Source: Baffinella frigidus (lineage: Eukaryota; Cryptophyceae; Cryptomonadales; Baffinellaceae). From it: a stretch of 29,954 nucleotides of DNA. Positions 6,871 through 29,892 of the stretch are shown here, piece after piece. The position numbers were made by a program, and so were the translations under genes. Each line of letters begins with the position of its first letter. Within the stretch, counting starts at the first letter, position 1. The stretch covers positions 78,972-108,925 of the forward strand of contig MU646736.1 of assembly GCA_026770585.1 (NCBI GenBank). Direction: 5' to 3'. A model generated the notes under the pieces. It had not been told where the DNA came from, ran no database searches, and was given only the letters and a program-made list of their open reading frames with translations.

Positions 6871-6871
<1 letters not shown>

Positions 6872-6994: not shown

Positions 6995-7025
<31 letters not shown>

Positions 7026-7125
7026 GACCCTCAACCCTCAACCCTCAACCCTCAACCCCAAACCCCAAACACCAAACCCTAAACCCTAAACCCTAAACCC
7101 TACACCCCAAAACCTGAACCCTGAA
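6951..7125. repeat. Interstitial telomere-like array, CCCTAAA / CCCTCAA
   Basis: Heptamers CCCTAAA and CCCTCAA alternate with variants such as CCCCAAA. The C-rich strand is on plus, the same strand as the gene that follows. Confidence 0.9.
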
Positions 7126-7126
7126 T

Positions 7127-7700
7127 GGCGTGATGTTTCTGAGTGACACGAGAGTGGAGCACGACAGGAGCGAAGCAAGGCAACACTAGCGGGCGCGAGT
7201 GATGTTTCTGAGTGACGCGCGAGTGGTGCACAACATCAACTGAGCAAAGTGGAACTAGCGGGCGAGAGTGATGTTCCTGAGTGACTCGAGTGGTGCATGC
7301 CAGGAGCGTACGTTGTTTCGCGGTGGTCACCGCGCACGTCGAACCAAGTCAGATTCCTGAGTGCCTCGCATGAAGTGATCCTCCTGAGTGACTCGAGAAC
7401 GTTCTCGCACGGCAAGAGCTAAGCAAGGCGGAACTAGCGGCAGAGACAGAGACGCTCAGGCTGGGGCAGTCCGGGTGGTTGGTTGCGTGCAGGTTGCGGG
7501 TGGGTGCGGGAGGGGTGGTGTGCGTGTGGGTGCGCTCCTCCCCTCGGGTGGTGTGCGATTGCGGAGGGGTGTTCTGAGTGTTGGTGGTCACGCACCATTT
7601 TGACATTCTGTTTGGTGTGCGTTGTTTTCGGTGTCACCAGTTGAATCACGTGATGTTCCTGAGTGACGCGAGAGGGATGCACACCAGGAGCTGAGCAAAG
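7127..7700 (+). repeat. 66-80-bp repeat carrying copies of an acceptor-side exon edge
   Basis: Units contain GTGATGTTTCTGAGTGAC followed by an (A/C)AGGAGC.(A)AGCAA motif (about 7130, 7198, 7268, 7380 and 7650). The last copy runs into the open exon at 7688-7765. Earlier copies reproduce the CAG acceptor and first codons of that exon (GAGCTGAGCAAAGCGGA) with substitutions. Confidence 0.7.
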
Positions 7701-8236
7701 CGGAGATAGCGGCAGAGACGCTCAGGCTGGGGCACACGCCCGTCCCGCGCTTTCGACCCGAGCAGGTTGCGAGCCCCATCCAAGTCCAACCCTTGCACCC
7801 ACGTCCCCTGCCTATCTATGTATCTACCGTCTTACGCGGTTCTGAGGGTGGGTGCGGGCGTAGTGAGGGGTTTCTGGGTGGGTATGCAGAAGTCTCTCTC
7901 TCAAGAAGTCTCTGTCTCAAGACGTCTCTCTCAATCTCTCTCTCAATCTCTCTCTCAATCTCTCTCTCAATCTCTCTCTGAATCTCTCTTTGAATGTCTC
8001 TCTGTATTTCTCTCTCTGGGGGAGGCAGACGGCCCGCCTGCAGACAGAGCTGGACGCGCGCCTGGCAACCCTGCTAGTTACCTAGCTAGCTAGGTAGCGG
8101 CAGTAGTTGCAACACTTGGAGTAGTGAGGGGCTTCTGATGGGGTGTGGGGGTGGTCAGTGACGCGCTTGTGTGGGAGGGTGTGTGTTCGGGTAGGGAGGC
8201 GCTTCTGAGGGTGTGTGTGGGGGTCTCTCTCTCACG

Positions 8237-8282
<46 letters not shown>

Positions 8283-11200
8283 GGGTGGCAGGCGGCTCGG
8301 CTGCAGGCAGAGCTAGACGCGCGGCTTGCAGCAGCAACCGCGTGGCAAAGACAGGACCACCTGCAACCTCCCCCCCCTCCCGCAGCCACTCCAGCACCGC
8401 AACCCCCCCTCCCTCCCTCCCCGCGCGCTGAGACAGTCATTCATCAACAAGAACGTCTCGCGGAGGAGGCCCACGGGGTGGTCCCTGCCTGGAAACCACC
8501 CCCGAAGGTGCGATACCCCCCCCCCTCCCTGAGAGAGAGACCATGCGCCCCCCCCCCCTGTGAGAGAGAGGTGTGGGTGTCATGTGTGATGCCTTGCGTG
8601 CGGATGCGAACAGTACTGAGGCATGTTTGGAAGGGTGCGAAGTGGGGGTGGCCAGCCGGGCAGCTTGTCCGTGGTGAGGGACTCGTGGCGCATACACTTG
8701 CCGATCACGCATCTCCTGACTTGCGAGGAAGCACGAAGACGAGAGGTCAGTGACTTCTGATCTCTGAGTGACTTCTGACAAGTGACGTTTGATCCCTGCT
8801 ACAGACAGGAGAGCCATCGGCACCACCTTCCCTACTTCTTTCTGGTGATCTCCACCGCATCCCTGCATGTGCTTGCCTCCGTGCTTGTAGGTTCAGGGGT
8901 TTGGGGTGTGGGGTTGTACCAAACATCAGGCGTTGGTTCCCGTGCATCGCCACAAAGTGCGCGTTTGCGTCGGTGAAAAGTGGAAGCTGCTTCGAAACCA
9001 GGCAGCCGACCTGCACCCAAACCCTGACAAGCCTGCCGTGCGATGCGTGACGACAAGCCTGCCGTGCGATTCGTCACGAGTCTCGTGCCTCGCGTCTCGA
9101 TTTTCCAGAAAATTTCCCAGAACATTTCCAAGAACATTTGTGAAACATTTTTGAGCAACATTCTGAGAGAATTTCGCATGGGTGCAGGCAACGCGTCTGA
9201 CTCTGACTGGGGGAAGCTCCTGCAACGCAAGGTACGCTCGCCGAGCACGCGCCATCACTCTCTCGGCGTTGACGCTGCCTGTATGTGCTCATTGCTTCTC
9301 TGCAGACGTGCGTGTGTGCTGGCAGACGTGGCGAAAGTGAAAGTGTGTGTCCTCCTGGCAGACGTGGGGGGTGCCAAAAGATGATCTCGAAGCGCTCTGT
9401 GACTGGGTCATGCAGGTTCTTCCCCGACCCTGCACCCTCAACCCTGAACCCTACACCCTGAACCCTAATCCCCCAACCCTAAACCCTAATCCCCTAACCC
9501 TAAACCCTAACCCCTCAACCCTAAACCCTCAACCCTCAACCCTAAACCCTAAACCTTGAACCTTGAACCCTAAACACTAAACCCCAACCCCCAAACCCTA
9601 AACCCTAAACCCAATGGTACTCCTCGGGAACATCCCACTTGGCGGTGTCAACCCGAATCCCGAATTCCGAAACCAACCAGAGTCAAGGATTGAAAGAGCA
9701 CATTGACGGATGACGTCGAGCAAGACCCTGAGATACCTGGTCCCGAAGCGGGCCCATCCCAGCCATCCATTCATTCCTCAGGAGGTCTCCCCGTGCAACA
9801 CACTGGCCACGCGTCAGTTTTGTAAAGCGACTCTCTCTCTCTCTCTCTCCCTCTCTCTCTCTCTCTCCTTCCCTCTCTCTCTCTCTCTCTCTCTCTCGGC
9901 AGAGTCAAGGACTGAAGGAGCACATGGATGACTTCGAGCGGGACCCAGAGGATGCACAGCAGCTGGGCCTCAACGGCTTGGAATTCGGGGGCGCCGCCAC
10001 GTCTGCAACCCCCCCCCCCGTCAATTCACCCTGCCCGGTGAAAACCAGTGTTTTTTGTTTGATGTACCACAAATGTTGTTGATCAGGGACGGGAGAGAAC
10101 TGGGATGCGAACACACCACTGAACACAGAGGTGCGAACACACGAATGAACACAGAGGTGTTACACAACACTGAACACAGAGGAGGTGACGGACTCTGAGA
10201 TGCGTCACGCTGCAAGTATGCTCTTGCTTGACAATTGCTGGGTCAGATGCGTGACACCACCACGTTGGACAATCATACATTGAGATAAAGTGAGATCTGT
10301 CGCGGCGCAGGGTGCCCCCCCCGCGGGGGGGGCGGAAACGGGCCCTTCGTGTTTACCTGTCCAGTGTGTTCTGGTTACAGGCTGTGACATAAACTGAGAT
10401 CCTTTGCGGTGCAGGGTTGGATGTTTGGAGGTGGTGCAGGGATATTCGTGGCAACACGATGATGGGCAACCATCCCTTGACAGCATCGATGGTCAAACAT
10501 TCCTTGACAGAGAGTGGTGTGCGTTGCGGCGCAGGGTGGGCGGCGCGGGGGACGGAAACGGGTCAATACCGTTGGATATGCTCCAACGAGAAGAGCTGCT
10601 CAAGGTCAAGGCTCGCTTGAAATTGGCCGCCAGCAGGTATGCCTCGCGCAAACGCCCAACGTGATTTGCCTCTGAATAACTTCACTTCTCCTGTGTTCTG
10701 GTCTCTCGACCCTACTCACAAGTGTAAGTCGGGTTCACACCTCCTCTGTTCTCATCTTGAGACCTCCTGTGTGATCGACTCTCGTCCTGACACCTCCTCT
10801 TTGTTCTTCTTACACGTCACACCTCCTTTTCTGTCGTCTCTACTCGTGTATGACGCACAATGCATGACGCACACCAGGTTCCAGCGAAACGAGGGGCTGG
10901 ACCTGCAACGATTCGACGTTGGAATGGTCTCCGAAATCCGCGGAGAAGAGGAGTGCGCCGCACATTGCTTCTGCCGAGAATTCGTGCTCCACAGGGTGCG
11001 TCACGTCTCCTGGTTGCTTCTCCCCGCGGCAGCGCACATCAAAACAATCGCGGTGCATTGCTTCTGCCGCGAATTCCTGCTCCGAAAGGTGCTGTCTTAC
11101 AAGTGAAAGCAGGACTCACACCTCCTCTGTTCTCGTCTCTCGGCCCTATCTTACAAGTGTACGTTTTCTTCTGCCGCGAATTCGTACTCCAGAAGGTCGC

Positions 11201-12320
11201 TTTTCCAGCCAGCCTCTCCCAATATTATGCTGTATTGGGCCGGACATTGCTCCGCGCATTGCCGGGAATTCGTGCTCCAAAAGGTCGGTTTTCGCTCCAG
11301 CCTCTCCGCGCACAATATTTGGCCGAGCATTGCTCCGTGCATTGCTTCTGCCGAGAATCCTTCTGTAGCACCAATTCTGCACGAATTCGTGCCGCAGAAG
11401 GTGCGTACACTTCTCCGTGCGACAGCACACATTTACGGGATTAGTTCTGAGATTCGAGCAGTGAGCAACAACACACCTGGGTCTGTACAGGAAGAAGGAA
11501 GCATTCAGCAGAAGCTGCAGAAGGTGTGTCGCTTCTCCAGCCAGCTTCTCCGCAAAGAATCGTTGCCTTACAGGAAGCATGCTGAAATTTTCTTTTGTGG
11601 AAGCATGGCGCAGGTTTAGGGTTTAGAGTTCACCCTCAACTCTCAACCCTCAACATCGCACATTGCAGGGAACGATGCTGATTCGCGCAGTCGGCAACCA
11701 ACCTGGATCTGCACCAAAATAAAGAAGCACAGTTCTCCCCCAACCTCCCGAACGACACCAGTGAGGTCTTTCTTTGACCGAAAACTGCCCAGCAGCCACA
11801 TTGAGCGATGGTTCGTTTTGCCATCGTGCGTTTTATTCCATGCGTCATCTTAGTTGGACCACGCAAGGCTCCCCTGTACGCCAGTTGACCGAATCGGGCA
11901 ACTAGTTGACTGAACCGGTTGACTGAACCTGGCAAGTGTGGTGCGTGGACGACAACTTACAGACAACTGAGGAATTGGCTTGGGGAATTTGAACGAGAAG
12001 TCGCCCGAAATCGGGCAGCCTGCGGCGCAAAAATCCAGCGGAAAACACTTGAAAAGACGACCGGGAAGAAACGATTTCTAGCCGACTTGGAGCGGTTCTA
12101 TCCCGCTCCAAGTCGGCCTTTCAGGAAATATGGCGGGTTTATTGTGGAATCGCCTTTCAAGAAATATTATGGTGGAATCGCCTTTCAGGAAATATGAATT
12201 TTTGACGAAGAAAAGGTGCAGGTGCTGAACGTTCCGGATGCTGCTGGGATGTCTAATAAACCCAAGCACGGGTACACGCGGTTCTCCGACGACGCTGAGA
12301 AAGCCCTCATCGAACTCCAG
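7688..12320 (+). CDS. Spliced gene of unknown function, partly coiled-coil (partial model)
   Basis: Nine exons are supported by GT-AG borders, open frame and GC-rich third positions: 7688-7765, 8292-8507, 9188-9231, 9362-9415, 9903-10037, 10535-10636, 10878-10995, 11452-11523 and 12222-12320. Joins are in phase for exons 1-2, 3-4, 4-5, 6-7, 7-8 and 8-9. Exons between 8507 and 9188 and between 10037 and 10535 must be missing from my model; 8807-8890 is one candidate. Exon 2 encodes a heptad-rich segment (AARLQAELDARLAAATAW) followed by a Pro-rich linker and an HQQERLAEEAHG helix. Later exons read TWGVPKDDLEALCDWVMQ, SQGLKEHMDDFERDPEDAQQ, LQREELLKVKARLKLAAS and FSDDAEKALIELQ. The product is probably a charged, helical, cytosolic or nuclear protein. 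No family is recognised. The start may be the exon at 5574. The 3' end and the donor after 12320 are unclear. Confidence 0.55.
7905..8015 (+). repeat. (TCTCTCTCAA)n and CT-rich minisatellite
   Basis: Repeats of TCTCTCTCAA grade into plain CT just before GGAGGCAG at 8021-8028, so the array forms the pyrimidine tract of a candidate acceptor that precedes a decayed exon copy. Confidence 0.85.
8029..8075 (+). pseudogene. Decayed copy of the 8292-8507 exon head
   Basis: After a CT tract and GGCAG, the sequence encodes TARLQTELDARLATLL, closely matching AARLQAELDARLAAA of the exon at 8292. It then reaches TAG at about 8081. Only about the first 16 codons and the acceptor side are duplicated. Confidence 0.7.
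8223..8280 (+). repeat. (CT)n tract upstream of a splice acceptor
   Basis: A CT microsatellite ends 11 bases before the CAG acceptor of the 8292 exon and can serve as its polypyrimidine tract. Confidence 0.85.
9299..9361 (+). repeat. Three copies of the acceptor edge of the 9362 exon
   Basis: GCAGACGTG occurs at about 9302, 9323 and 9358. Only the third opens into the 54-nt exon (TWGVPKDDLEALCDWVMQ). Confidence 0.65.
9427..9613. repeat. Interstitial telomere-like array (CCCTAAA and variants)
   Basis: Dense CCCTAAA, CCCTCAA and CCCTAAT units lie in the intron after the 9362-9415 exon, with the C-rich strand on the coding strand. Confidence 0.9.
9681..9735 (+). pseudogene. Frameshifted copy of the 9903-10037 exon
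   Basis: CCAG followed by AGTCAAGGATTGAAAGAGCA matches the intact exon (AGTCAAGGACTGAAGGAGCA). Next comes a 4-base insertion (ATTGACGGATGAC against ATGGATGAC), which shifts the frame into a stop. Similarity continues to GACCCTGAG and then fades. Confidence 0.8.
9832..9898 (+). repeat. (CT)n tract forming the polypyrimidine tract of the 9903 exon
   Basis: About 65 bp of CTCTCT runs directly into CGGCAG, the acceptor of the 9903-10037 exon. The decayed copy at 9681 lacks this tract. Confidence 0.9.
10300..10560 (+). repeat. Copies of the acceptor edge of the 10535 exon
   Basis: GCGGCGCAGGGTG followed by a GC block and CGGAAACGGG occurs at about 10300 and 10528. A third shorter copy (GCGGTGCAGGGTTGG) is at about 10406. 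Only the last leads into the open exon. Confidence 0.65.
10960..11410 (+). repeat. Ladder of exon-tail copies (C-F-C-R-E-F-V-L-x-K plus donor)
   Basis: The last codons of the 10878-10995 exon and its donor recur at about 11053-11094, 11163-11202, 11246-11289, 11332-11362 and 11374-11405. Each copy has a GAATTC or GAATCC core, and most end AAGGT or AGGGT. Segments between them share GCCAGCCTCTCC and ATTGCTCCG motifs, giving a unit of roughly 85 bp. Confidence 0.8.
11681..11730 (+). pseudogene. Decayed copy of the 11452-11523 exon
   Basis: ATTCGCGCAGTCGGCAACCA and the following bases match ATTCGAGCAGTGAGCAACAA of the exon at 11452. The matching frame ends at TAA after CACCAAAA. Confidence 0.65.
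12081..12117. repeat. Perfect 15-bp hairpin
   Basis: GCCGACTTGGAGCGG (12081-12095) pairs perfectly with CCGCTCCAAGTCGGC (12103-12117) across a 7-nt loop. It is followed by two copies of a TTTCAGGAAATAT / TGGTGGAATCGCC motif up to 12197. The open frame through it (11960-12110) is not in phase with the neighbouring exons. Confidence 0.75.
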
Positions 12321-12548
12321 GGCACGTCCACCCTCCCCCTCTCCTCCAGCTATCTCGACTGCTGGTTTATGGTTCAGGGTTGGGGACCCTGAATCATAGC
12401 CCTCCACTGCCCTCAATTGCCCTCCCCTGCCCTCCTCCCGCGATACACGCCCCCCCCCACCCTCCACCTCATCTGGCGCAAACAGTGAGTAGTTACTGCG
12501 AGGATCACTGTGCAATAGGCGCCAGGTCCTAGAACGACGATTGGGAGA

Positions 12549-12602
12549 TACACCGAAGAAGAAGAGAAGACGAAGAGAACGCCCTCATCGATCTCCAGCC
12601 CC
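12549..12602 (+). pseudogene. Diverged copy of the 12222-12320 exon tail
   Basis: The codons EDEENALIDLQ match DDAEKALIELQ at the end of the 12222 exon. The identical block GCCCTCATCGA(T/A)CTCCAG occurs in both. The copy is preceded by an Arg-rich frame; whether it is used as an exon is unknown. Confidence 0.6.
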
Positions 12603-12679
12603 CCCCCCTCCTCTCGCCACCCCCCGGCTCCCTTCAGCTGGCAGCTCTCTGCCATCGAGGTAGCGGGCACGCTCCCTTT

Positions 12680-12725
12680 GGGGTTTGGGGGGAGGATGTA
12701 GGGTTTAGGGTTTAGGGTTTAGGGT
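12680..12725. repeat. Short TTTAGGG array
   Basis: Telomere-type heptamers with the G-rich strand on plus, opposite in orientation to the other arrays on this side of the window. Confidence 0.85.
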
Positions 12726-12834
12726 ACACCCCCATGGGTGTGTTGTGAATGGTGACTAGCGTCCCTCCCGCCCGTGGAGGCGTGTCACCATCTCGCGGAA
12801 GAGAGAGGGTGCCACCTAGCCTGCCTGTCGCACC

Positions 12835-12950
12835 ACGCGATGGTAGATATGCTATGAATGCAGAAGCACGCTATGGTAGATATCCGATGCCTATGAATGC
12901 AGAAGCACGCTGTGGTAGATATGCGATGCGTTTCTCAGCACGCTAGGCGT
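12835..12950. repeat. Tandem repeat, about 57-bp unit
   Basis: The block ATGAATGCAGAAGCACGCT followed by (A/G)TGGTAGATAT occurs twice, with a partial copy on each side. The frame is open (GRYAMNAEARYGRYPM), but I see no splice borders. Confidence 0.7.
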
Positions 12951-13053
12951 GCGATGCCTGATGCACCACGGTACACATGCGACGCCGCTCGAGTCCCAGC
13001 AAGGAGCCTTGCGGTGGTAGCGAGGATCGCGGCACCCTTAACCCTACACCCTC

Positions 13054-13240
13054 GGCCAGGCAAGGACAGAGACGAGGCCATATCGCTTGATTGACTGACG
13101 TTGGAAGAGGGCACCGGTAGACGGGACCACACGGCGTGTGTTGGCAGGCTCGGACCAGAGCGAGGTGTGCGTTGAGGCTAACACTACAGGGATCGATTTG
13201 CAGGCAAGGACAGAGACGAGGTGTGCGTGGCATTCCCATA
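13054..13240 (+). repeat. Copies of the acceptor edge of the 13311 exon
   Basis: CCAGGCAAGGACAGAGACGA occurs at about 13056 and, as CAGGCAAGGACAGAGACGAG, at 13201. The 13201 copy continues GTGTGCGTGGCATTC as in the exon at 13311. A more diverged version (GAGCGAGGTGTGCG) is at about 13157. Confidence 0.7.
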
Positions 13241-13310
13241 TCTCTCGTTCTGAAGAGGCTGACGATGGTAGAGGGAATCGCTGCACCCTGAACCCTACAC
13301 CCTCGACCAG

Positions 13311-13450
13311 GCAAGGACAGGGACGAGGTGTGCGTGGCATTCACGTATCAGGCGATCGAGTGGACCTGCTGGCTCAAGAGCTCTGGGGACCCTTCGCTGA
13401 TGAAGGACGCGCGCCCCCGCTCTACCCACGGCATCCGACACCACCGGTAA
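13311..13450 (+). CDS. Possible terminal exon with PAN/apple-like motif
   Basis: After CTCGACCAG, the frame beginning at the third base reads DEVCVAFTYQAIEWTCWLKS and continues to TAA at 13448-13450, with strongly GC-rich third positions. The pattern C-x-A-F-T-Y followed by C-W-L-K-S is typical of the C-terminal half of PAN/apple domains, which bind ligands in extracellular proteins. The alternative is an internal exon ending at 13446 with donor GTAATT. The overlapping frame is also open but has poorer codon texture. No upstream exon carrying the rest of a PAN domain was found, so this is tentative. Confidence 0.4.
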
Positions 13451-13471
13451 TTGCCTCCCTCAGACACCACC

Positions 13472-13597
13472 GGTACAGGGGTACCTCGCTCATAAGAACC
13501 CCTCCCGCCCCCTAGGACCACCGTAGGACCCTACGCATAGCCCTACTCAAGGGTCCTAGGCGGAGGCGCTTTCTGATGAGCGAGGTACCCCTGTACC
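13472..13597. mobile_element. MITE-like foldback, 22-bp perfect terminal repeats
   Basis: GGTACAGGGGTACCTCGCTC plus AT (13472-13493) is exactly inverted at 13576-13597. The 126-bp element has further imperfect pairing inside (CCCCCTAGGA with TCCTAGGCGG). It starts 25 bp after the 3' border of the candidate PAN exon. The last bases of that exon and the donor (GACACCACCGGTA) are duplicated at its left end. No transposase is present and no clear target-site duplication was found. Confidence 0.8.
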
Positions 13598-13599
13598 AT

Positions 13600-14700
13600 T
13601 CCCTGCGTCCCTCCCTGCCTGTTGTTCTGCAGATATTTCCTGTCCGCGCAAGTTGTTTGGTTCCCGCCGTTGTTGGTTGTGTGATGTGTGATGTGTGATG
13701 TGTGGTGGGTGGGATACAGGAGCAGCACGGTGACGTCAGTCCTCAACTCCTGGGCGCAAGACTATGCCTCCCATCCTGCGCCTCTCGACCCTGCTCTCGC
13801 TCTCCCGATCGCCAAGTCACGAGCTTCCACGGCCGGAGTTCCACCCCAACGAGAATGAAGAGGGGTTTCGCGCTCGAGAGGGGGGCCTAACACAGGCTGA
13901 GACGGGCGCATGCGAGCGGTGATCGCCTCCTAGTGCCTCCTGGAAGGTGGTTGTGCCATATGCTATCGCTCCTGGCATGTGAGGGGCGCGGGAGGGGAGG
14001 GGAGCTGTATATTGTTGCGTTGAGTGGAGGTGTAAATATTGGATGCACAGGTTCGATGCTCTTGATTCCATCATCGGACACCATAGAGAGCGAGGGAGCG
14101 ATAGAGCGAGAGCGCGCGTGTGCGAAAGAGCGAGGGGGAGAGGGAGATCGAACGAGAGAGGGAGCGCGCGAGAGAGAGCGAGAGCGAGAGAGAAACACGC
14201 ACGTGCACGCAACCACGCTCTCTCGCGTGGCTGACCAGAGTCACCCATCTCAGCGAGAAAAAGCACGCACTCAATCAAGCCACATGCACGCCCCCCCCTC
14301 GGTGGATCGCACAATAGCAGCGAGTCGAGCACCCCACAACGCAAGCCCCCGTACACACATGCAGTCCAGGATGATGTTGTTTTGTACTCAGCGGCATCCC
14401 TCCCCTCTCGCGTGCAGCTCACCTTACTTAGGACTGCCGCCCCCACCCCCGCGTCTCCACGCTCTCTCTCTCTCGAGATTAGCTCTCCTCGATCGCAGGG
14501 AGCTTGCCCGCACGACGCATCCGCACCTGTTGAGAAGGTTCAAGGTTATGAGCCTCAGTGCGGAGTTCTCTTCCTGTTGAGAAGGTTGAGCCTCAGTGCC
14601 AGAGGGGGAAGGACGGCGTCCGGGTGGGGGGGTAAGGTGGGCGAGGGTGAGTTGTGATCACCAAGGCGCTCCTGGGTGTGCCTCAGGGCCAGGTGTTCAC
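13600..14700. other. No gene seen; GA-rich repeats
   Basis: This holds TGATGTGTGATGTG repeats (13678-13706), a GAGAGC-rich microsatellite (about 14080-14195) and duplicated CCTGTTGAGAAGGTT motifs (about 14527 and 14573). The long minus-strand frame crossing it is repeat-driven. Confidence 0.5.
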
Positions 14701-14710
14701 GGACCAAAAG

Positions 14711-14840
14711 CACATGTCGAGGCTCAGTGGGGTGTGCACATGTCGAGGCTCAGTGGGGTGTGCACATGTCGAGGCTCAGTGGGGTGTGCACATGTCGAGG
14801 CTCAGTGGGGTGTGCACATGTCGAGGCTCAGTGGGGTGTG
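14711..14840. repeat. Five perfect copies of a 26-bp tandem repeat
   Basis: Five head-to-tail units starting CACATGTCGAGGCTCAGTGG and ending GGTGTG, at 14711, 14737, 14763, 14789 and 14815. The identity implies recent expansion. Confidence 0.95.
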
Positions 14841-14942
14841 CTGCGGGGAGACCCTGCCTGGTAGATACGCCTTAAGACAAGCTGCAAGAGGTTCAGAGGC
14901 TTGCGATTATGGGATGGATGTCGATAAGCAATACGCCACGTG

Positions 14943-15061
14943 GATAATCCGTAGGACCCTACGGTATGCCACCCGTAGGGACATGGGGTTGTTCCTACCG
15001 ATATCCTGACCGATTCTTGGCAATAATCCGACCACAAATCCCTTTGTAGCCCGCTGTGTGG
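14943..15061. mobile_element. GTAGG/CCTAC foldback element, copy 1 (inverted core)
   Basis: Shares ATCCGTAGGA at the start and a CCCTTTG..G.CCGCTGTGTGG end with the copies at 16943 and 18135. The palindromic centre (CCCGTAGGGACATGGGGTTG) is in the opposite orientation. A self-complementary GTAGGACCCTAC lies inside. Confidence 0.65.
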
Positions 15062-15202
15062 CTCTGCTTCACTAGGGTTGACCGACTATTTTCAAGTGGG
15101 TTTGCGGTAAAAATCCGTCAACTTGGGAACGGGACAGAGCCCGCCCCCCCCCAATTGGTGAGCCCACACAAATTGAGACAGCGCTAGGAAGCGGTTGTGA
15201 GG

Positions 15203-15575
15203 GGAGGAGACCTCGTGGTTGATGAAATGAAATGATGAAACATCTCTCAACAAAGGTCTAAGTGGGAGAGCGAGAGAGGAGGAGACCTCCTTCTCCGGAA
15301 CCCAAGTCCTCGAGGACAGGGAGCAATCGTCCTCGAGTACGTGGTTCAGGAGAAACTGTCGGGGGTGGGTGGCACCTCGTGGTCCAGTGAGTTGAGAAAC
15401 ACTGTGCGTGGTGGGAGAGTGGGATGGGAGGAGACCTCGCGCTACTGCGATGTTGCAACTACTGGGCGTGGTGGGAGGGTAGGAGGGTNNNNNNNNNNNN
15501 NNNNNNNNNNNNNNNNNNNNNNNNNNNNGGGGGGGGGGGGGGGGGGGGGGGGGGGAGAGTGGAAGGGGAGGTGAC
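15203..15575 (-). repeat. Copies of the donor edge of the last prefoldin exon, interrupted by a gap
   Basis: The plus-strand motif GGAG(A/G)(T/A)GACCTCGTGGTT, which is the end of the exon at 15576 and its donor, recurs at about 15203-15222, 15280, 15371 and 15430. Each is associated with GTGGGAGAGTGGGA-type repeats. Ns fill 15489-15528, and 27 Gs follow at 15529-15555. The final C-terminal exon of the prefoldin gene is expected here or below and was not identified. Confidence 0.7.
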
Positions 15576-22400: not shown

Positions 22401-22699
22401 TAACCATGTTCGTGTCCGGGTGTGGTTGCGGTTGCGCGTACAAGGAAGAAGCCAGTCGTTTTCACCGCGGCGTGCATATTGCCCACACAGCGGGCTAAGA
22501 AGGGGTTTTCTCGCCGAGATCGAGCAACTTTCCTTGGGAAAGCCCCAGGAATAACTCTATGTCCCAAACCAGGATAGCCCCAGGAACAACTGTATGTCCC
22601 AAACCCTAAACCTGGTTGGTGGATCGCAGAGAGGCTGGTGCAGCAGATTGTCCAGAACTTTCCGGATCTCGATCGCCTCGAGGGTTATTCCCAGGTCCC

Positions 22700-22733
<34 letters not shown>

Positions 22734-25351
22734 TCTCCCTCTCTCTCGCTCGCGCTCTCTCTCTCTCTCGCGCTCTCTCTCTCCTCTCCTTCCCTCCCTC
22801 CCTCCCTCCCTCCCTCCACCCTCTACTCGTCGTTCCCTCTCGCATGTGAGTACGGCATCTGCCTTTCGGCGTACGGTATCGGGCTTAGGGTTCACCGTCT
22901 CGAAGGCTACTCCCAGGCCCCTCTCCCTTTCGCACGTCCCTCTCCCCCCCGACGTGAGTGAGTGTTGGGACGGCAGGAAGCCCTCCTCTTCAGACAGACC
23001 TGTCCTGTAAGGTTATGAGCCCTTGGTGGACCTCGCAGGTGGTCCACTCTCACCCAGAACATGTGCTGCATGCAGGACCTGGTGCGCTGCGTGTGACGAG
23101 GTGGGTGTTAATAGGGAAACGTCCTGCAAATCGGGTAGTTAGGTATTGCCTACTGTAGGCCGTAGGGCCCCTAGGACCTGATGCTTCGTAGGACCCCCCC
23201 TAGGCCTACCGTAGGCAATACCGTAGGCTTAACTACCCGGATTTCAGGACGTTAGCCTATGAGTGTGGCTGGTGGCGGTCGCTGAATCCAGAAGCCTCAA
23301 CCCCCGCAACGGCAGGACATGGCGTGGACTACTGTGGTGGTGGCTGGGCCGCATCGGGGTGGTGTGGGTGGCAGGACATGACATGCCTTTTGTGGGTGGT
23401 GTTGGCCGTTGGTGGGTGTGACTTGGTGAGTGTGACATGCTTGGTGGTGGTGGCAGGACATGACGTGCGACCCCCCCTCGGACCACTACGATGCGCGCGA
23501 GAAGAATGAGGCCAACCTCTACACTCTCATCCACTGGCTCAACGACCATCTTCTCACCACCGGCCGCGGTACCCACCTCCATCCCTACCTCCCTATTCCT
23601 ACCTCCACAACTCTCTCCGTACCTACCCTTGCGTGCACACCCTCAGCAAGAATGCGGCAAACCTATACACTCTGGTACACTGGCGCAATGACCATCTTCT
23701 CACCACCGGCCGCGGTACCTACCTACCTGGCTACCTCCCTACCTCCATCCCTCCCTACCAAGCTATCTAGCTAGCTAGCTACCAACCAACCTACCTTCCT
23801 ACCGACACGTGCACACCCTCACGATGCCACCAACCCAGCACCGGTGCTGCGTGCGGCAGTGCTTCAGACTCATGCTGCTGACACCAAGAGGCTCGGTGTT
23901 GTCGCTTCGAGCCAGTGTTTATGCGGTGTTGTCGCTTTACATCAACTGTCTCTGTGGTGGTAAAGGGATGGTGCAAGTGCCAGGCCCTGTGATGGTGCAG
24001 GGTCACTGAGTCAATGGATTTCTCTGACAGTGTGTGGGGGTGCAAGGATGTTGGAGGTGTCTATGTGGTGGTGTCGCCAGCAAGTGACTGTGAGGTGATG
24101 CACGGACGGTGGAGGTGTGTACGGCAAGCGTGTGTGTGGGGTTGCAGGGATGGTGCAGGGTCAGTGACTGAGTGGGGGGGAGCAGGGATGGTGGATGTGT
24201 CTCTATAGGGACACAGGGTCTCTCAGTGCTTTCATGGGTGCATTCTTCAAGATTTACAGAACGTAAGTGACTCTGTGTGGGGAGCATGGATGGTGGAGGG
24301 TGCCAGCCTATGTGATGGTGCAGGGTCACTGACTCGGTGTCTCTGCGGGGTTCCAGGGTCTCTGAGTGTCACGTGATCAACTGTGTACTTGAATAGGGCT
24401 AACGTAAGTGATTCTCTGAGTCAATGTGGTGTGTGCAGGGATGGTGGAGGTACCCGACTTGACAGAGAAGATGGGGCCTGCCGACGATCCTGGCGACTGG
24501 CACTGCAGTAAATCCTGCTGCAAGTGTGTTGACTGCAAGTGACTGTGTGATGGTGCAGGGATGGTGAAGATTTCTAGGTAGTGGTGTCGCTTGACAGGAA
24601 TGACTGCCACTGCGGAGGGGTGCAGTGATGAAGTGTCACTTTGGTGGTGCAAAGTCTTTAAGTGTGTGTGGTGGTGTGGTGCAGGGATGGTGGAGGGTCT
24701 CTCACTGTGCAGGGTCACTGAGTCAATGTGTACGGCAAGAGTGTGTGTGTGGGGTTGCAGGGATGGTCCAGGGTCACTGAGTGAATTTGGTGGTGTGCAG
24801 GCATGGTGGAGATACCCGACTGGACGGAAAACATGGGCCCCCCTGACGATCCTGGCGTCGACTGGGAGTGGAATGCCTACGACCCTACCGATCAGGTGCG
24901 AGAGAGAGAGAGAGAGAGAGGGAGGCGAGAGAGAGAGAGAAAGAGTGATGATGGCATCGGCTGCTTCTGATGCCCCTCACATAGACAGAGAGACATAGAG
25001 ACATAGACAGAGCGACATGGAGACAGAGACAGAGAGACATAGCGATGATGGCCTCGGCAGCTTCTGATGCCCCTGCCTGGGGCATCAGAAGCTGCCGAGT
25101 CCATCATCGCTATGTCGCGCAGCTTTCGAGATGGGTATTATGCTAGCGCGTAATACCCATCTCGAAAGCTGCGCGTCGATTGGCAGTGGAAAGCCTACGG
25201 CCCTACCAATGAGGTGCGTTTAGGGTTGGGGGCTTTGGGTGTAGGGGCATTCAGCATGCAGTGTGGCCGACTACGGTCAAGCTTGGCCCTGCCGATGATC
25301 CGGGCGTCGATTGGCACTGGGTTGCCTATGACCCTACCGATCAGGTGCGAG

Positions 25352-25388
<37 letters not shown>

Positions 25389-28300
25389 CGAGAGAGAGAG
25401 AGAGAGTGGTGAAGACATCGGCAGCTTGTGATGCCCCTCTCGAAAAGCCTCGCGTGCTAGCTCTTGACGCCCCTCTCGAAAAGTGCGCGTCGACTGGCAC
25501 TGAAACACCTACGCCCCCACCGATGAGGCGATCCCCTTCCCGGTGAGCTAGCTCTTGCTGCCTCACTCACGCCTTGTGTACGCTTTTGATGCCCCTCTCG
25601 AAAGTTACAAGACAATACCTGCAGAAAGTGAAGTCAACATCGCAGGCTGACCTCAGGGTCGAAGTTATCATGGAGGGGAACCCCCATCAACCCTAACCCT
25701 AACCCGAACCCTAACCCTAACCCCAACCCTAACCCCTAAACTGTTTCGCGATGCGTCGAGTGCTGGAGCGGTCACGCGAGGTAGTGGAGGGTGGTGGGTG
25801 AGTGCTGTGGCTAGTGCTACGTCGACGTGCGGCTGGCGACTAGTGCTCACGCCTGGTCGGTGGGTGCCATTTCCTGAACACTCAGTGTTGATTGCTGGGC
25901 AACCGTTGAACCTATCAACCCTAACCCCAACCCTAACCCCGCAACGGTTCAGGTGCTGGATCTGGCGCAGGAGGCAGTGGAGGATGGTGGGTGGGTACAG
26001 AGGCTAGTGCAACGTAGGCGTGAACCTCACGACCAGTTCTCACGCATCGGTGGTGCAGCGACGGCGGAGGAGTTCACGGTAAGAGCGTGTGGGGGGCTGC
26101 AGGGGTGGTGCAGGGTCTCTGACTCTGTGTGTGGGGGGGCAGGTGCTGGAGCTGGCGCGGGAGGCTGTTCGCAGCGGGGATCGCGCACCCCTCCTCCGGC
26201 TGTTGGAACGCATGGATGCTGTTAACGGCACTGGCGTCGACTGCCGGTACTGTCGCTCTCTCTCTCTCACTCACTCGTTCACTGACTGGCTGACTCACTC
26301 GCTCGCTCGCTCGCTCACTCACTCACTCACTCACTCACTAACGCGCTCACGAGTTCACTCACTCACTCACTCACTGGTTAGCTGACTCACTCACTCACTC
26401 ACTCACTCACTCACTCACTCACTCCTCTCGCCTGTGTGGTGTCCAGTGTGCGCGTGGTGAACGTGTGATGGTGGTGGGGGGGTTGGGGTCGGGTGTGGGG
26501 GCGGGGTAGTCACAGGGGGTCTCTTTCATTTGCCGAGGACCGTGGAGCTGAGATACGGAGGCAGCCTGCCAGCCACTCTCGCTCACCTCAGCTTAGCGAT
26601 CGGTGTGTCACTGGCATGGCAGCGCTCGCACTGGGATCGGTATGCTGATGTGCACATGACGCGTGTGGCAGGTGCCCGCTGACGCTGCAGACATCCCTCC
26701 ACTTCGCGGCCATTGCCGGCGAAGCCTCTGTCGCTGCTCTCCTCGCTCAGGTGCCCCCCCTCCCCCGAATGGAGACATTCCTAGTGCGTATGCATCAGCG
26801 ATTCATCACACGAAAAATGGGTGATTGGTGGCTTAAACACGCGTTGGAAAACAGGTCGGTGCGGACCTGGAGGCAGCTGCCGGTCGATGCTCAGGGATTC
26901 GTGAAAATCAGGGATTGGTGACTCACGGATGGCGGGGGGGGGCGGGTCAGTGCGGGTCTCGAGGCAGCGTGCGTGGACAGTGATTGGTTGCGACGTGGGT
27001 GTAGCACACGCACCCCAGTCCTGTATTGTCCGATGGTGGGGGCGGACTGACCCCTACTAACCCGAACTCCGACGCAGGTTGGTGCCGACCTGGAAGCAGC
27101 TTGCATCGATGGAGAGACGCCACTGCACAAGGCTGCCGAGGGTGCGCGCCGCGGCGCTGTGCGCGAGCTTCTCGCGCATGGCGCGTGGCCCAACGCCCCC
27201 CGCCACTCTGACGGTCACCTCCGCGCCACACACCAAATCCGAAACCTTCAACCTTACACCCTATACCCGAAACCCGTAACCCGAAACCGTAAAACAGGAG
27301 CGACGCCGCTGCACATGGCGGGGCTGACGGGGGAGGGGGACGTGTGCTCTCTCCTCGTGCGGGAGGGCGCTGACGTCGAGCTTCGCACCCCGAAGGTTTC
27401 TCTCTCACTCCCAACCCCCCCCAAGTCCTCACCCACAGCCAAACGCCCAAGTTCTCCGCCACGCCGTGTGTCGCATACATTTTACGAATCAAACTTTCAA
27501 ATTAGTTGGCCGATACATACATACATGCGCTGGTAACGTTTGTCAAATGGCTGGAAGAAAGGGGCTGCGAAGGTGTGTGTCTGGTTGCGCGCCACAAAAG
27601 CAGTCAAGTCAGCACACACTTGGTAAGTGGCCGGGACCAAAAGTCTGCAAAGGCGTGGGATTTCTTGCTCACGGTGTGGGTTGTGGTTGCACGTGACAGG
27701 GGCAGTCAGCACTCCACTTCGCAGCACTCGGGGGCTACGTCCACCCCACCGCATCCGCCGAGGCGCTGGTGGCCCTCGGCGCGGATCTGGTGAACCCTAA
27801 ACCCCAAATCCCGCACCCTAAACCTGAAACCAAAAAACGTAAACCCGAAACCCGAAACCAGAAACCCGAAACCTCAAAGCCCAAACCCCAAAACCCAAAC
27901 CCCAAACTCTCAACCCCAAACCTGGAACCAGGATGGGAAGGACAACATGGGGTGGACGCCGCTGATGATGGCTGTCTATTCTGGCGAGGAGGTGCCAAAC
28001 CCTCAACCTCAAACCCTAAACACCAAACACCAAACACCAATCACCAAACCCCAAACCCCAAACCCCAAACACCAAACACCAAACACCAAGCCCCAAGCCC
28101 CAAACCCCAAACCCCAAACCCAAAACCCAAAACGCCTCAAACAGGGGATGGCATCGAAGCTGCTGCTCTCTCTCGGCCCAGACCTGGAGACGTCTTGCTG
28201 CTGATCGATATACAGCACCCCGCATACAGTCGATCTAACGCTCCGAGTCCGGCTCGTCCTGGGCCAGGGTTTCGGGTGTAGGGTTTTCCTGACGATCACA

Positions 28301-29892
28301 CGCGGGGTGTGATCGGCAGGGGATGGCCTCGAAGCTTCTCTCTCTCGGCGCGGACTTGGAGGCGCGCGACCACTCTGGCAACTCCGTGCTTCACCACGCT
28401 GTGCAATACAGCATTGAGGTGACGCCCTGACGCCCGCTTCACCTCGCCATCAAGCCCTCAAGCCCGCTTCACCTCAGGGCTTCACCTGTGCCCCCCGCCC
28501 CCCACCCTGCTTCCGAACCCCGGATCCCGGATTCCGAGTCCCGAATCGTGGTGTCCATCACGGCTTGGAGGTGAGGAACCCCTCGGCTTGACCTCGCCTT
28601 GAGGTCCTGAACCTCGCTTCACCTGCGAGGCATCCCGCTTGGGATTCAGGGCTTCACCTGCACCATGCGCCCCCCCTCGCCCCCCGCCCTGCTCCCGAAC
28701 CCCGGATCCCAGATCCCGAGTCCTCCACCACGCTGTGCACTACGGCCTCGAGGTGACCCTATACCGATAGTAGCAACGGGAACAGGTTTGCTTCCGCCAC
28801 CCGCCCGGCGCCTGAACCCTGGATCCCGGATCCCGAGTCCCGAATCATGCTGTCCCTTACTGTCTCGAGGTGAAGAACCCCTCGGCTTTGACCACTACGG
28901 CTTTGACCAGTGCAGTGCGGCTTTGACCAGTAAGGCAGCCCCAATCGAGAACCCCGCGAGGTTGCCAAGACCCCCGCGGGCCTCGCTTCCGAATCCTGGA
29001 TCTCGAGCCCCGAATCTCGAATCCCGGACCCCGAACCGTGAAGACAGTGAGAACTCGGTCCTCCACCATGATGTACACTGCGGTCTCGAGGTTGCCACCA
29101 CCCCCCCCCCCGCTCCCGAGCCCCGAGTCCCTGGTCCTGAATCCTGGATCCCGGATCCTGGATCCCGGATCCCGGATCCCGAATCCCGAATCCCGAATCC
29201 CGAAAGGCCAAACACGCACCGGTGCACAGGGTATGGTGTGGTTGCTGCCCTATGAACTGGCCTACCGGCCTCTGGGGGGGAGGGGGGTTATCAGCGAGGT
29301 ACCCTAGACTAAGTCTTACGTCATTACCTCCAATTGAAATGCAGAACACACACCGCCGCACGTGACTCGAACCGCTACACGGAGATGGTGTCGCGCTTGT
29401 TTCGGCACACGTAACTCAAAGCGACCTTGGTGTCCTGCGTTCCCAAGCTTGCACTCACTCTCTGCCGCACCACCACTTTACCGCACCACCACGATTTGGA
29501 ATCCCGAATCCCGGATTGCCAAACGCGCACCGGTGCCCTGGGGGTGGTGCGACTGCTGATGCGGCACGGCTGCTGATGCGGAACCGCTGCTGGTGCGGCA
29601 CGTAACTCCAACAGTTTTGTAACGCGAAGTTTGCACCAGGGGATGGTGTTGCTCCTGCCCTAGCAGGGGATGGTGTTGCTCCTGCCCTAGCAACAGGCCT
29701 ACCGATCTCTGCAGGGTTTCTTTTATCAGCGAGGTACCCTAGACACAGGCCTACATCAACACCTCGACTTGAAATGAAGACCACGTTCCTCCGCACGTAA
29801 CTCGAAGTGCTACTCAGGGGATGGTGTTGCTGCTGCTTCGGCATGGCGCTGACGTCTACGCGAGCAACCGCGCTGGCGAGAAAGTCTACGAG
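19484..29892 (+). CDS. Secreted thioredoxin-like / ankyrin-repeat fusion protein (3' end beyond window)
   Basis: Exons: 19484-19615, 19948-20045, 20664-20756, 21550-21607, 22179-22267, 22630-22694, 23457-23568, 24801-24895, 25953-26078, 26143-26246, 26672-26750, 27078-27213, 27298-27395, 27700-27789, 27941-27991, 28320-28418 and 29818-29892. Joins keep the reading phase through 0, 1 and 2 from exon 3 onward, strong evidence for one gene of at least about 530 residues. The ATG at 19511 may be the true start. A signal peptide (LGVGLAFLLLMSG, cleavage near GCAA) is followed by a thioredoxin-like fold: WIVMFYS, YDCQRMSFLFGDLAERL, IHVAKFDTSSETE, SLPAIVIFEG (cis-Pro loop) and PGERLVQQIVQNF. A linker of unknown type (HYDAREKNEANLYTLIHWL; PPDDPGVDWEWNAYDPTD) leads to six ankyrin repeats and the start of a seventh (for example DGETPLHKAA, DGATPLHMAG, HGADVYASN). 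Exons 2 and 3 join one base out of phase, so an exon is missing or there is an error. Confidence 0.85.
20555..20645. repeat. Telomere-like array with CCATAAA variants
   Basis: CCCTAAA, CCATCAA and CCATAAA units end shortly before the acceptor GATCGGCAG of the 20664 exon. Confidence 0.8.
20880..21180 (+). repeat. Two copies of the donor edge of the 20664-20756 exon
   Basis: The exon ends GGCACCCCCAAGTCTGGTAC plus GCATCCAAC. Copies are CACGTCTGGTGCGCACC (20891-20907, followed by CAACTATCC as in the original) and GGTGCCCCCAAGTCTGGTAC (21146-21165). An AATCTGCTGATAAACGGGTT pair (about 20971 and 21002) lies between them. Confidence 0.8.
21315..21540. repeat. Long interstitial CCCTAAA array
   Basis: About 30 heptamers (CCCTAAA, CCCTACA, CCCTGCA) run up to CCCCCCTGCAG, the acceptor of the 21550 exon, so the C-rich array supplies its pyrimidine-rich approach. 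Confidence 0.9.
21625..22178 (+). repeat. Intron with two tandem duplications
   Basis: A CCACCCT(T/G)TCAGAACCC unit occurs at about 21627 and 21670. A 90-bp unit (GTCTC(G/A)CTCAGCGACTGGGA ... TATTTACTT(C/G)TGGATA) occurs at about 21901 and 22088. Both copies of the second unit run into GCAGGTT(C/T)GC, which in the second copy is the acceptor and first bases of the 22179 exon. Confidence 0.75.
22697..22820. repeat. Poly-C run followed by CT-rich microsatellite
   Basis: Over 30 Cs and then TCTCTCGCTC and TCCC repeats start directly after the donor of the 22630-22694 exon. Confidence 0.9.
22896..22916 (+). pseudogene. Copy of the 22630-22694 exon tail
   Basis: The codons RLEGYSQ are repeated with silent changes (CGTCTCGAAGGCTACTCCCA against CGCCTCGAGGGTTATTCCCA), but the donor GGT has become GGC. 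Confidence 0.75.
23118..23253. mobile_element. MITE-like foldback with AACGTCCTG termini
   Basis: The left terminus AACGTCCTGCAAATCGGGTA is inverted, with one gap, at the right end (GGATTTCAGGACGTT). Arms extend about 40 bp and include TATTGCCTAC / GTAGGCAATA. The centre has CCTAGGACC and GTAGGACCC motifs like the other foldbacks. It is about 136 bp, non-coding, in the intron before the 23457 exon. Confidence 0.85.
23311..23460 (+). repeat. Three copies of the acceptor edge of the 23457 exon
   Basis: GGCAGGACATG occurs at 23311, 23370 and 23452. The second continues ACATGCC and the third ACGTGCGACC into the open exon. Confidence 0.75.
23651..23714 (+). pseudogene. Second copy of the distal half of the 23457-23568 exon
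   Basis: Encodes NAANLYTLVHWRNDHLLTTG against NEANLYTLIHWLNDHLLTTG and ends in the same CGGCCGCG|GTACC donor. It is preceded by CAGCAAG. It stays open, so it could be an alternative exon, but it lacks the first half (DMTCDPPSDHYDAREK). Confidence 0.75.
23965..24800 (+). repeat. Ladder of about ten acceptor-edge copies of the 24801 exon
   Basis: Variants of GCAGGGATGGTGGAGG occur at about 23965, 24041, 24143, 24181, 24283, 24435, 24554, 24681, 24756 and finally 24797, where the acceptor leads into the open exon. Intervals are 40-150 bp and include GGTCACTGAGT and TGTGTGTGGGG motifs. Confidence 0.85.
24439..24524 (+). pseudogene. Near-complete copy of the 24801-24895 exon
   Basis: Reads MVEVPDLTEKMGPADDPGDW against MVEIPDWTENMGPPDDPGVD of the main exon and stays in the same phase. 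It loses one codon before DW and ends without the DPTDQ|GTGCG donor. It may be an inactive or alternative exon. Confidence 0.7.
24898..25038. repeat. (GA)n and GACATAGA repeats starting at a donor
   Basis: The GA run starts within the donor GTGCGAGAGAG of the 24801-24895 exon. It is followed by GAGACATAGAC repeats. The same donor-GA arrangement recurs at 25345-25408. Confidence 0.9.
25039..25113. repeat. 35-bp hairpin with one mismatch
   Basis: The left arm 25039-25073 begins ATAGCGATGATGG. The right arm 25079-25113 is its reverse complement except one C-T opposition, across a 5-nt loop. The left arm's GCTTCTGATGCCCC also occurs singly near 24961 and, in part, near 25427. Confidence 0.9.
25116..25175. 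repeat. Perfect 25-bp hairpin adjacent to the previous one
   Basis: CGCGCAGCTTTCGAGATGGG continuing to 25140 is perfectly inverted at 25151-25175 across a 10-nt centre (TGCTAGCGCG). The right arm abuts a copy of the VDW exon at 25176. Confidence 0.95.
25176..25540 (+). pseudogene. Three further partial copies of the 24801-24895 exon
   Basis: 25176-25213 encodes VDWQWKAYGPTNE|GTGCG. 25263-25344 encodes LGPADDPGVDWHWVAYDPTD and Q|GTGCG. About 25488-25535 encodes VDWH followed by an in-frame TGA, and its donor has become GCGATC. The second copy could be functional; the third is clearly broken. GATGCCCCTCTCGAAA repeats at about 25432, 25469 and 25589. Confidence 0.75.
25688..25740. repeat. Array of hexamer type CCCTAA
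   Basis: Units are mainly CCCTAA (TTAGGG type), with CCCCAA and CCCGAA variants, unlike the CCCTAAA heptamers elsewhere. A shorter set is at 25916-25940, directly before the acceptor of the 25953 exon. Confidence 0.85.
25757..25862 (+). pseudogene. Decayed copy of the 25953-26078 exon
   Basis: VLERSREVVEGGG followed by an in-frame TGA matches VLDLAQEAVEDGGW of the intact exon. DNA similarity continues to CTCACGC(C/A)T..TCGGTGG. The 26143 exon (VLELAREAVRSGD) is a third, coding, member, so this exon has been duplicated at least twice. Confidence 0.75.
26255..26425. repeat. (ACTC)n / (CTCG)n tetranucleotide repeats
   Basis: Tetranucleotide tracts start about nine bases after the donor of the 26143-26246 exon and run with short interruptions to 26425. 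Confidence 0.9.
26853..26985 (+). repeat. Two copies of the acceptor edge of the 27078 ankyrin exon
   Basis: CAGGTCGGTGCGGACCTGGA (26852) and GGTCAGTGCGGGTCTCGAGG (26945) match CAGGTTGGTGCCGACCTGGA at 27075. The first keeps the acceptor AG; the second has lost the AG|G context. Confidence 0.8.
27240..27292. repeat. Short telomere-like tract before an acceptor
   Basis: ACCCTATACCCGAAACCCGT-type units lead into AAAACAG, the acceptor of the 27298 exon. Confidence 0.7.
27560..27625 (+). pseudogene. Copy of the acceptor edge of the 27700 ankyrin exon
   Basis: GGTTGCGCGCCACAAAAGCA and GTCAAGTCAGCACACACTTGG parallel GGTTGCACGTGACAGGGGCA and GTCAGCACTCCACTTCG at 27684-27718. The AG acceptor is lost. 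Confidence 0.65.
27790..28142. repeat. Degenerate telomere-like arrays CCCGAAA / CCCCAAA / CACCAAA
   Basis: Two arrays flank the 51-nt ankyrin exon at 27941-27991: 27790-27935 (CCCGAAA, CCCAAAC) and 27995-28142 (CCAAACA, CCCCAAA). Each starts within a few bases of a donor and ends near an acceptor, so these introns are almost wholly repeat. Confidence 0.9.
28145..28191 (+). pseudogene. Copy of the acceptor edge of the 28320 ankyrin exon
   Basis: CAG then GGGATGGCATCGAAGCTGCT encodes GMASKLLLSLGPDLE, against GMASKLLSLGADLE in the exon at 28320. It then diverges at the ARDHSGNS part. One Leu codon is inserted. Confidence 0.75.
28419..29100 (+). repeat. Ladder of donor-edge copies of the 28320-28418 ankyrin exon plus minisatellite
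   Basis: The exon ends CTTCACCACGCTGTGCAATA, then CAGCATTGAGGTGA. Copies end at about 28570 (GGTGTCCATCACGGCTTGGA|GGTGA), 28752 (CACGCTGTGCACTACGGCCT), 28870 (CATGCTGTCCCTTACTGTCT) and 29090 (CATGATGTACACTGCGGTCT), each followed by (C/G)GAGGTG or CGAGGTT. Between them lie GGATCCCGGATTCCGAGTCC minisatellite tracts that expand again at 29130-29205. Confidence 0.85.
29222..29817 (+). repeat. Copies of the acceptor edge of the 29818 exon and a 150-bp direct repeat
   Basis: CAGGG(G)(T/A)TGGTGT-type exon heads lie at about 29227, 29386, 29537 (GGGGGTGGTGCGACTGCTGA), 29637 and 29666. A longer unit with TTATCAGCGAGGTACCCTAG and a CCGCACGT(G/A)ACTCGAA tail occurs at 29288-29372 and 29733-29806. The second unit leads into the intact exon GMVLLLLRHGADVYASN. 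Confidence 0.75.

Follow-up and report, generated by a model that had tools for sequence, protein, structure and literature searches.

Exon duplication and alternative exons leave exon sequence repeated in a neighbouring intron, as do the copies that we describe here in the cryptophyte alga Baffinella frigidus; unlike those cases, the Baffinella copies are one-bordered and absent from the known spliced product. According to two accounts of intron gain by tandem genomic duplication and by partial duplication in genes (PMC3443670, PMC2891723), a short exonic piece with splice sites is duplicated, the message stays unchanged and the event is tolerated, and all of this applies to Baffinella as well. 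Compared with what these accounts describe, however, the Baffinella intron pre-exists and is lengthened, and the duplicate consists of one real border plus intron and is left unspliced in the known product. Repair-mediated duplication in vertebrates, as presented in PMC2671141, likewise concerns short and closely linked copies that can include exons and splice sites; that study left out pairs within 50 bp and reports an inverted exon copy, whereas almost every pair in the window analysed here is direct, and contiguous pairs occur. With regard to features of the SDSA type, many of our pairs are spaced, and in the window their orientation is nearly always direct. Introner elements (PMC9860276) also add intron sequence in many genes, but here no dispersed family was seen in the window and the copies derive from the adjoining exon. 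None of the cryptophyte terms searched for occurs in PMC9860276, and the word "intron" is absent from the main text of the genome paper on this alga (PMC9756366). Within the searches made, no account of exon-edge ladders was found in the open PMC literature. The genome paper gives strain CCMP2293, conspecific with B. frigidus, a genome of 534.5 Mb, 6.1 times that of its relative Guillardia theta (PMC9756366), and the edge copies make visible one way in which introns grow in a genome of this reported size.

Gene models and copies of exon edges

The window, by which we mean the whole stretch of 29,954 nucleotides that was analysed (C428:78972-108925 of a 382-Mb assembly with 1,364 contigs), holds three spliced genes with 37 exons and 69 splice edges, and their exon maps were fixed by independent proteins and not by the original prediction (Table 1). 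Gene 1 has a weak PAN-domain match (PAN_1, E 3.6e-5, two pieces joined), and its 13 spliced exons translate exactly to an NCBI protein of B. frigidus (T484DRAFT_1962735, P0145). Gene 2 encodes prefoldin subunit 3 (PFDN3; Pfam Prefoldin, E 2.2e-22), and its eight exons translate exactly to another NCBI protein of this species (P0001); the prefoldin-like protein of the minus strand was 100% identical over 161 residues to a B. frigidus NCBI protein. The 16 exons of gene 3 that lie in the window correspond, by exact translation, to residues 1-492 of the 877-residue P0025. The longest contig for P0025 measures 2,796 nt and leaves no room for introns, so we infer that it is a spliced cDNA. The gene 3 product may carry a signal peptide and a thioredoxin-like region, by our own reading of its sequence, and putative ankyrin sequence, by the Pfam labels that its relatives carry. 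Exons were 40-216 bases long and introns 84-1,399 bases, and the introns are of the GT-AG type except for two with GC donors; these GC-AG introns are found in the annotated gene 1 model, at 6314-6315 (exon 2) and 12321-12322 (exon 11). In prefoldin relatives P0010-P0013, with longest contigs of 2.6-8.1 kb, the frames run uninterrupted across the positions of Baffinella introns 3-6, and if those sequences are genomic, introns 3-6 of PFDN3 would be absent in these relatives. The window gave no Rfam match at gathering scores and no tRNA, the gene 3 protein had no match in viral contigs, and the stretch 24401-29890 had none in phage records.

To find copies, each exon with 30 additional bases was compared with 1.5 kb of masked sequence on both sides. 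At a score of at least 26, 43 copies were detected, comprising 25 of 5' edges, 15 of 3' edges, three internal and none whole, and the controls gave one match in reversed sequence and two on the inverted strand; raising the score to at least 30 left 32 copies and removed every control match. The three internal matches (19723, 26856 and 25267) were left out of the 40 edge copies, which were distributed over 23 of the 69 splice edges. At least one edge copy was present at 20 of the 37 exons, with one to six copies each (one internal included), and the identity of copies scoring at least 34 was 76-100%, with a median of 87%. The prediction, made from the letters alone, that exon edges with their splice sites recur in the neighbouring introns of all three genes thus described something real. 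Of the 15 exons that it named, a copy was detected for 13 at score 26 and still for 11 when the score was set to 34, but the masked search gave none for those at 10535 and 22630, where weak candidate copies are visible by eye. One to ten copies per exon had been announced, and several per exon were indeed found, but the maximum was six and ten was never reached. As to whole-exon copies, which it had called fewer, none of the 43 was whole under the strict criterion, and two, at 7383-7468 and 25267-25334, could be stretched to nearly whole exons in looser alignments.

Table 1. Genes, exons and copies of exon edges, in window positions.
Feature	Positions	Strand	Remarks
Gene 1, otherwise uncharacterised protein, weak PAN-domain match	5574-13858	+	13 exons; exact translation to P0145
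Gene 1, exons 1-7	5574-5648, 6240-6314, 7688-7765, 8292-8507, 8805-8844, 9188-9231, 9362-9415	+	
Gene 1, exons 8-13	9903-10000, 10535-10636, 10878-10995, 12222-12321, 13311-13446, 13720-13858	+	
Gene 2, prefoldin subunit 3 (PFDN3)	14482-18983	-	8 exons; exact match to P0001
PFDN3, exons 1-8	18873-18983, 18666-18740, 18256-18339, 17693-17743, 17076-17147, 16306-16395, 15576-15620, 14482-14526	-	
Gene 3, putative signal-peptide/thioredoxin-like/ankyrin protein	19511-29892	+	16 exons within window
Gene 3, exons 1-8	19511-19615, 19948-20065, 20664-20756, 21550-21607, 22179-22267, 22630-22694, 23457-23568, 24801-24895	+	
Gene 3, exons 9-16	26143-26246, 26672-26750, 27078-27213, 27298-27395, 27700-27789, 27932-27991, 28320-28418, 29818-29892	+	
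Gene 1 exon 2, 3'-edge copy, downstream	6379-6411	+	
Gene 1 exon 3, four 5'-edge copies, upstream	7139-7181, 7208-7267, 7276-7307, 7383-7468	+	partly 69-base tandem array
Gene 1 exon 4, 5'-edge copy, upstream	8019-8067	+	
Gene 1 exon 7, 5'-edge copy, upstream	9308-9331	+	weak, score 27
Gene 1 exon 8, 5'-edge copy, upstream	9678-9732	+	
Gene 1 exon 10, four 3'-edge copies, downstream	11056-11092, 11165-11197, 11236-11285, 11514-11551	+	
Gene 1 exon 12, three 5'-edge copies, upstream	13032-13077, 13145-13172, 13201-13242	+	
PFDN3 exon 7, 3'-edge copy, downstream	15201-15221	-	
PFDN3 exon 6, 5'-edge copy, upstream	16470-16553	-	9 of its 10 exonic mismatches at third codon positions
PFDN3 exon 4, 3'-edge copy, downstream	17577-17604	-	weak, score 26
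PFDN3 exon 3, 3'-edge copy, downstream	17979-17998	-	20/20 identical
Gene 3 exon 2, 3'-edge copy, downstream	20299-20336	+	
Gene 3 exon 3, two 3'-edge copies, downstream	20890-20923, 21138-21174	+	
Gene 3 exon 5, 5'-edge copy, upstream	22077-22090	+	short, score 28
Gene 3 exon 7, two 5'-edge copies, upstream	23311-23326, 23367-23386	+	
Gene 3 exon 7, 3'-edge copy, downstream	23648-23712	+	
Gene 3 exon 8, three 5'-edge copies, upstream	24266-24298, 24413-24495, 24538-24571	+	
Gene 3 exon 8, two 3'-edge copies, downstream	25173-25218, 25487-25528	+	
Gene 3 exon 8, near-whole copy, downstream	25267-25334	+	counted as internal
Gene 3 exon 9, 5'-edge copy, upstream	25950-25978	+	
Gene 3 exon 11, 5'-edge copy, upstream	26852-26878	+	
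Gene 3 exon 15, 5'-edge copy, upstream	28143-28192	+	
Gene 3 exon 15, 3'-edge copy, downstream	28720-28757	+	
Gene 3 exon 16, five 5'-edge copies, upstream	29227-29248, 29353-29407, 29540-29576, 29619-29658, 29664-29685	+	

Sidedness of the copies and local duplication

The 25 copies of 5' edges were without exception upstream of their own exon, the 15 copies of 3' edges were without exception downstream, and every one of the 40 was in the intron adjoining that exon. For this side rule P is about 3e-7, taking the 23 edges as independent and the side as chosen by the available sequence. The rule, which the original prediction did not state, decides the matter. When a unit across an acceptor is duplicated in tandem, a partial copy is left upstream and the whole exon downstream, and a donor gives the mirror image; thus, the rule points to tandem duplication and not to random nearby copying, because about half of the copies would then sit on the wrong side. 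It had been argued against ordinary tandem duplication that it would show no preference for splice borders, and this was wrong, as a unit that crosses a border necessarily leaves a one-edged copy on the outer side (40/40 here and 11/11 in the second gene described below). Template switching primed at splice-site repeats, which had been offered instead, predicts copies on either side, and none was found on the wrong side.

The kinds of copy were also compared with those expected from random tandem units touching exons. With the unit sizes of the 44 of 71 pairs that lie outside exons, 53% of the units should hold a whole exon or multiple exons, 46% should be one-edged and 1% internal; with match lengths as unit sizes, the corresponding values were 7, 67 and 25%. 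We observed no whole copy, 40 one-edged and three internal ones, one of these approaching a whole exon. Duplications of whole exons and of exon interiors are thus scarce, as would be expected if units that alter the protein were lost to selection. The side rule is a simple and checkable signature of purifying selection on duplications, and it can be looked for in any genome.

The masked self-comparison of the window (score 36) detected 72 direct pairs, 71 of them within 3 kb and one beyond, and four inverted pairs, one local and three beyond 3 kb, with three in the reversed control. On these numbers, inverted or long-range copying was rejected for the window. Local duplications covered 17% of the unmasked intergenic bases, 23% of the intron and 21% of the exon bases; the median offset of the pairs was 219 and the median length 47, and tandem units of 69 and 27 bases were present. 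Eight other stretches of the genome, which were those with sequence among 20 arbitrary ones fetched (the other 12 were all N), gave 141 local direct pairs, 27 inverted and none in the reversed control at score 40 (42 kb unmasked). At the same score, three 10-kb parts of the window contained 60 direct and one inverted local pairs, and four Escherichia coli stretches contained 18 direct and no inverted pairs, with 14 of the 18 in a single stretch that has a tRNA cluster. Since the other stretches carry it too, local duplication seems to be characteristic of this genome in general. Two of the eight stretches (L014 and L018) were rich in local inverted pairs, with 14 and 6, respectively, compared with one in the window.

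Outside the window, the genome was searched with E. coli proteins, and the formal test concerned one gene, that for alanyl-tRNA synthetase (AlaRS), found with alaS on contig C33. It is a multi-exon gene whose seven exons join in frame; the borders were placed with E. coli alaS and the splice consensus, and the complete exon was taken as the real one. Its introns hold 11 edge copies, nine of 3' edges, all downstream, and two of 5' edges, both upstream, and the two controls gave zero each. At exon 3, an adjoining tandem pair (3687-3771 and 3776-3860; offset 89, length 85, 89% identity) spans the donor, with 43 bases of exon before it and intron after it, and over the 91 bases that follow the alignment drops to 45% with gaps; in this pair, tandem duplication is seen directly. 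Longer units have duplicated the edge copy and intron together, over 149 bases at 89% identity and 271 at 75%. Adjoining units, with an offset equal to the unit length, are clear at AlaRS exon 3 and in the 69- and 27-base units of the window, and most window pairs are spaced. The tktA query had one match in the genome, a transketolase fragment that was inspected by eye, where the last codons recur as a copy past the stop codon, at a place with no donor; the sdhA query had no match in the whole genome. The metK query led to an apparently intronless gene for S-adenosylmethionine synthetase at C22:1215754-1216827 (one open frame, query residues 32-372 of 384), so the intron load differs between genes of the same genome.

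Frequent local tandem duplication combined with selection probably explains the one-edged copies, and a special border-copying mechanism is, on the best reading, unnecessary. Short pieces, from tens to a few hundred bases, are often duplicated in tandem inside and outside genes, as the repeat surveys of the window and the eight other stretches indicate. A piece lying across one exon border would yield an intact exon and, on the outer side, an intronic copy of the edge with its splice site, which the side rule supports and AlaRS shows directly as a contiguous unit. Short exons are presumably recognised by both ends, and a copy with one splice site would be an incomplete exon, passed over with the message unchanged. 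Pieces that hold a whole exon or lie inside one would change the protein and be lost to selection, to judge from their scarcity. The copies would then decay, and the exon half should outlast the intron half because the source exon is held constant, leaving one branch to change, and the intron diverges on both; old copies would come to look like a splice site with codons. Repeated rounds, together with copies of copies, would build the ladders and lengthen the introns. Erosion must be assumed, because the spacing in the window usually exceeds the match and most pairs are no longer contiguous tandems. The original prediction had noticed something real that recurs in at least one other gene, and its cause is most likely ordinary. 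Among the interpretations offered, a mechanism of intron growth is supported, as each copy lengthens an intron, and border favouring, template switching and decoy sites are not. With its dense ladders, its side rule and the codon pattern presented below, the phenomenon is useful as a system and is not a new mechanism.

Divergence of the copies and alternative readings

Past the matched part, the intron side remained similar (mean z 1.1, P 0.03; 6/29 copies significant) and the exon side did not (mean z 0.15, P 0.85; 1/29 significant). The breakpoint is sharp in the exon and the fading gradual in the intron, as the tandem-duplication model says. In about half of the copies, however, the similarity of the intron part ends at the splice site or close to it, although many of their exon parts are 85-93% identical, and given this, gradual fading in the intron is not the whole story. 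In fixed register, 17 of the 27 upstream rows (two internal) had an intact AG, and 11 of the 16 downstream rows (one internal) had an intact GT; when registers were corrected by eye, these values became about 20/25 and 13/15, one of the latter being GC like its source. An identity of 86-89% leads one to expect about 20 AG and 11 GT. The copies thus keep their splice dinucleotides about as overall identity predicts, and the proposal of decoy or recursive splice sites is unsupported. No copy is contained in P0025, the one known spliced product, or in the two annotated proteins. With 23 of the 69 edges carrying self-copies, many with intact splice dinucleotides, and the known product nevertheless spliced without them, this alga offers a natural setting in which to test how the spliceosome of a protist distinguishes true exons from decoys with a single end.

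Mismatches between copy and exon at codon positions 1, 2 and 3 amounted to 34/347, 23/342 and 86/338 in the window and to 5/153, 5/155 and 28/155 in AlaRS, and these counts are dependent, because some copies are copies of copies. Exons with a single copy showed 8, 3 and 28 mismatches (about 105 sites each). In exons with at least two copies, changes private to one copy were even over the codon positions (15, 14 and 18), and 4, 1 and 6 sites had every copy different from the exon; the internal matches 19723 and 26856 were left out of these counts for single-copy and multi-copy exons. By our estimate, third-position changes in a dead copy next to an exon under constraint should be at most about twofold in excess, and the observed bias exceeds what dead copies should show. 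Either some copies worked as edges for a time, or diverged alleles were their source, or change at synonymous sites is faster than assumed. This bias is the part most worth following.

One reading is that exon edges turn over through successive tandem duplications and deletions, with copies replacing working edges, so that the ladders contain former or spare edges instead of dead copies, or, in a milder form, that copying occurs between strongly diverged alleles. This would explain the excess of synonymous differences between copy and exon, and we consider it unlikely. It is rather improbable that some copies are coding now or were so recently, as alternative exons, displaced former edges or sequence from a diverged allele. 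The third-position bias in the window and in AlaRS would fit such coding, and so would the PFDN3 exon 6 copy, with its mismatches nearly all at third positions (Table 1) and no stop, and the AlaRS exon 4 copy at 4945, with five of five mismatches at third positions. However, each copy carries one edge only, the private changes in multi-copy exons are even over codon positions, stops occur in the AlaRS copy at 3776 and in window copy 25487, and no copy is used in the spliced P0025 or in either annotated protein. Alternative or mutually exclusive exons as such do not fit, with no whole copy under the strict criterion and none in P0025, the one spliced product compared.

Local duplications covered 14 of the 69 splice edges, against 11.5 at shifted positions (P 0.25), and the duplication depth at edges was 22, against 15.9 (P 0.13). 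Duplication ends within 20 bases of borders were no more frequent than by chance (P 0.15 and 0.17), and those within 6 bases showed a weak enrichment (6 vs. 2.1, P 0.04, and 5 vs. 2.1, P 0.08). Splice borders are not clearly preferred by duplications in the window. An even spread of duplications had been named beforehand as the outcome that would speak against a preference for borders, and it is essentially what the window contains. Border-directed copying, either by template switching at splice-site repeats or by an RNA-linked process, therefore appears very unlikely. Several copies do begin at the CAG before an exon or stop near the GT after it, and this and the weak enrichment within 6 bases would speak for it, but the same duplications are present in intergenic DNA, the transketolase copy of last codons past the stop codon has no donor, and the side rule is left unexplained.

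It is highly improbable that the copies are relics of intron birth, by tandem duplication of an exon piece bearing AGGT or from introner elements. Under the AGGT model, 5' pieces would likewise come to lie upstream and 3' pieces downstream, and the PFDN3 frames of the relatives run across the positions of Baffinella introns 3-6. However, the flanks of the copies are unlike the neighbouring exon, with 1-6 of 12-13 bases matching (8 in one case, in a repeat), and AGGT intron birth was rejected for this reason; moreover, a number of copies include 20-30 bases of intron flank, and the window pairs are local, with no dispersed family. An assembly artefact is practically negligible as an explanation, because, despite many gaps or N stretches (including the 12 of 20 arbitrary stretches), the identities of the copies span 76-100% around the median given above, with indels, and the copies recur on another contig.

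Repeats within the introns

Introns at 27790-27931, 27214-27297 and 27992-28142 consist mostly of telomere-like repeats of the CCCTAAA type with the C-rich strand in the sense direction, and these repeats account for 134 of 142 and 63 of 84 bases in the first two, respectively. One AlaRS intron, at L028:3280-3578, is also mostly made of telomere-like repeats, as judged by eye. Over the 13 listed window introns, telomere-like arrays comprised 1,390 bases in the sense-C orientation and 224 in the sense-G orientation. In our view, the C-rich arrays, which often end near the acceptor, could supply branch points and the pyrimidine tract. Palindromic MITE-like elements with CCTACGG/CCGTAGG arms were observed at 16939-17060 and 18131-18252, immediately within the introns at the donors of exons 5 and 3 of the prefoldin gene, and they are 84% identical. 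By eye, a further MITE-like element was seen at about 14930-15060, and hairpins near 13480-13600 and 23130-23250.
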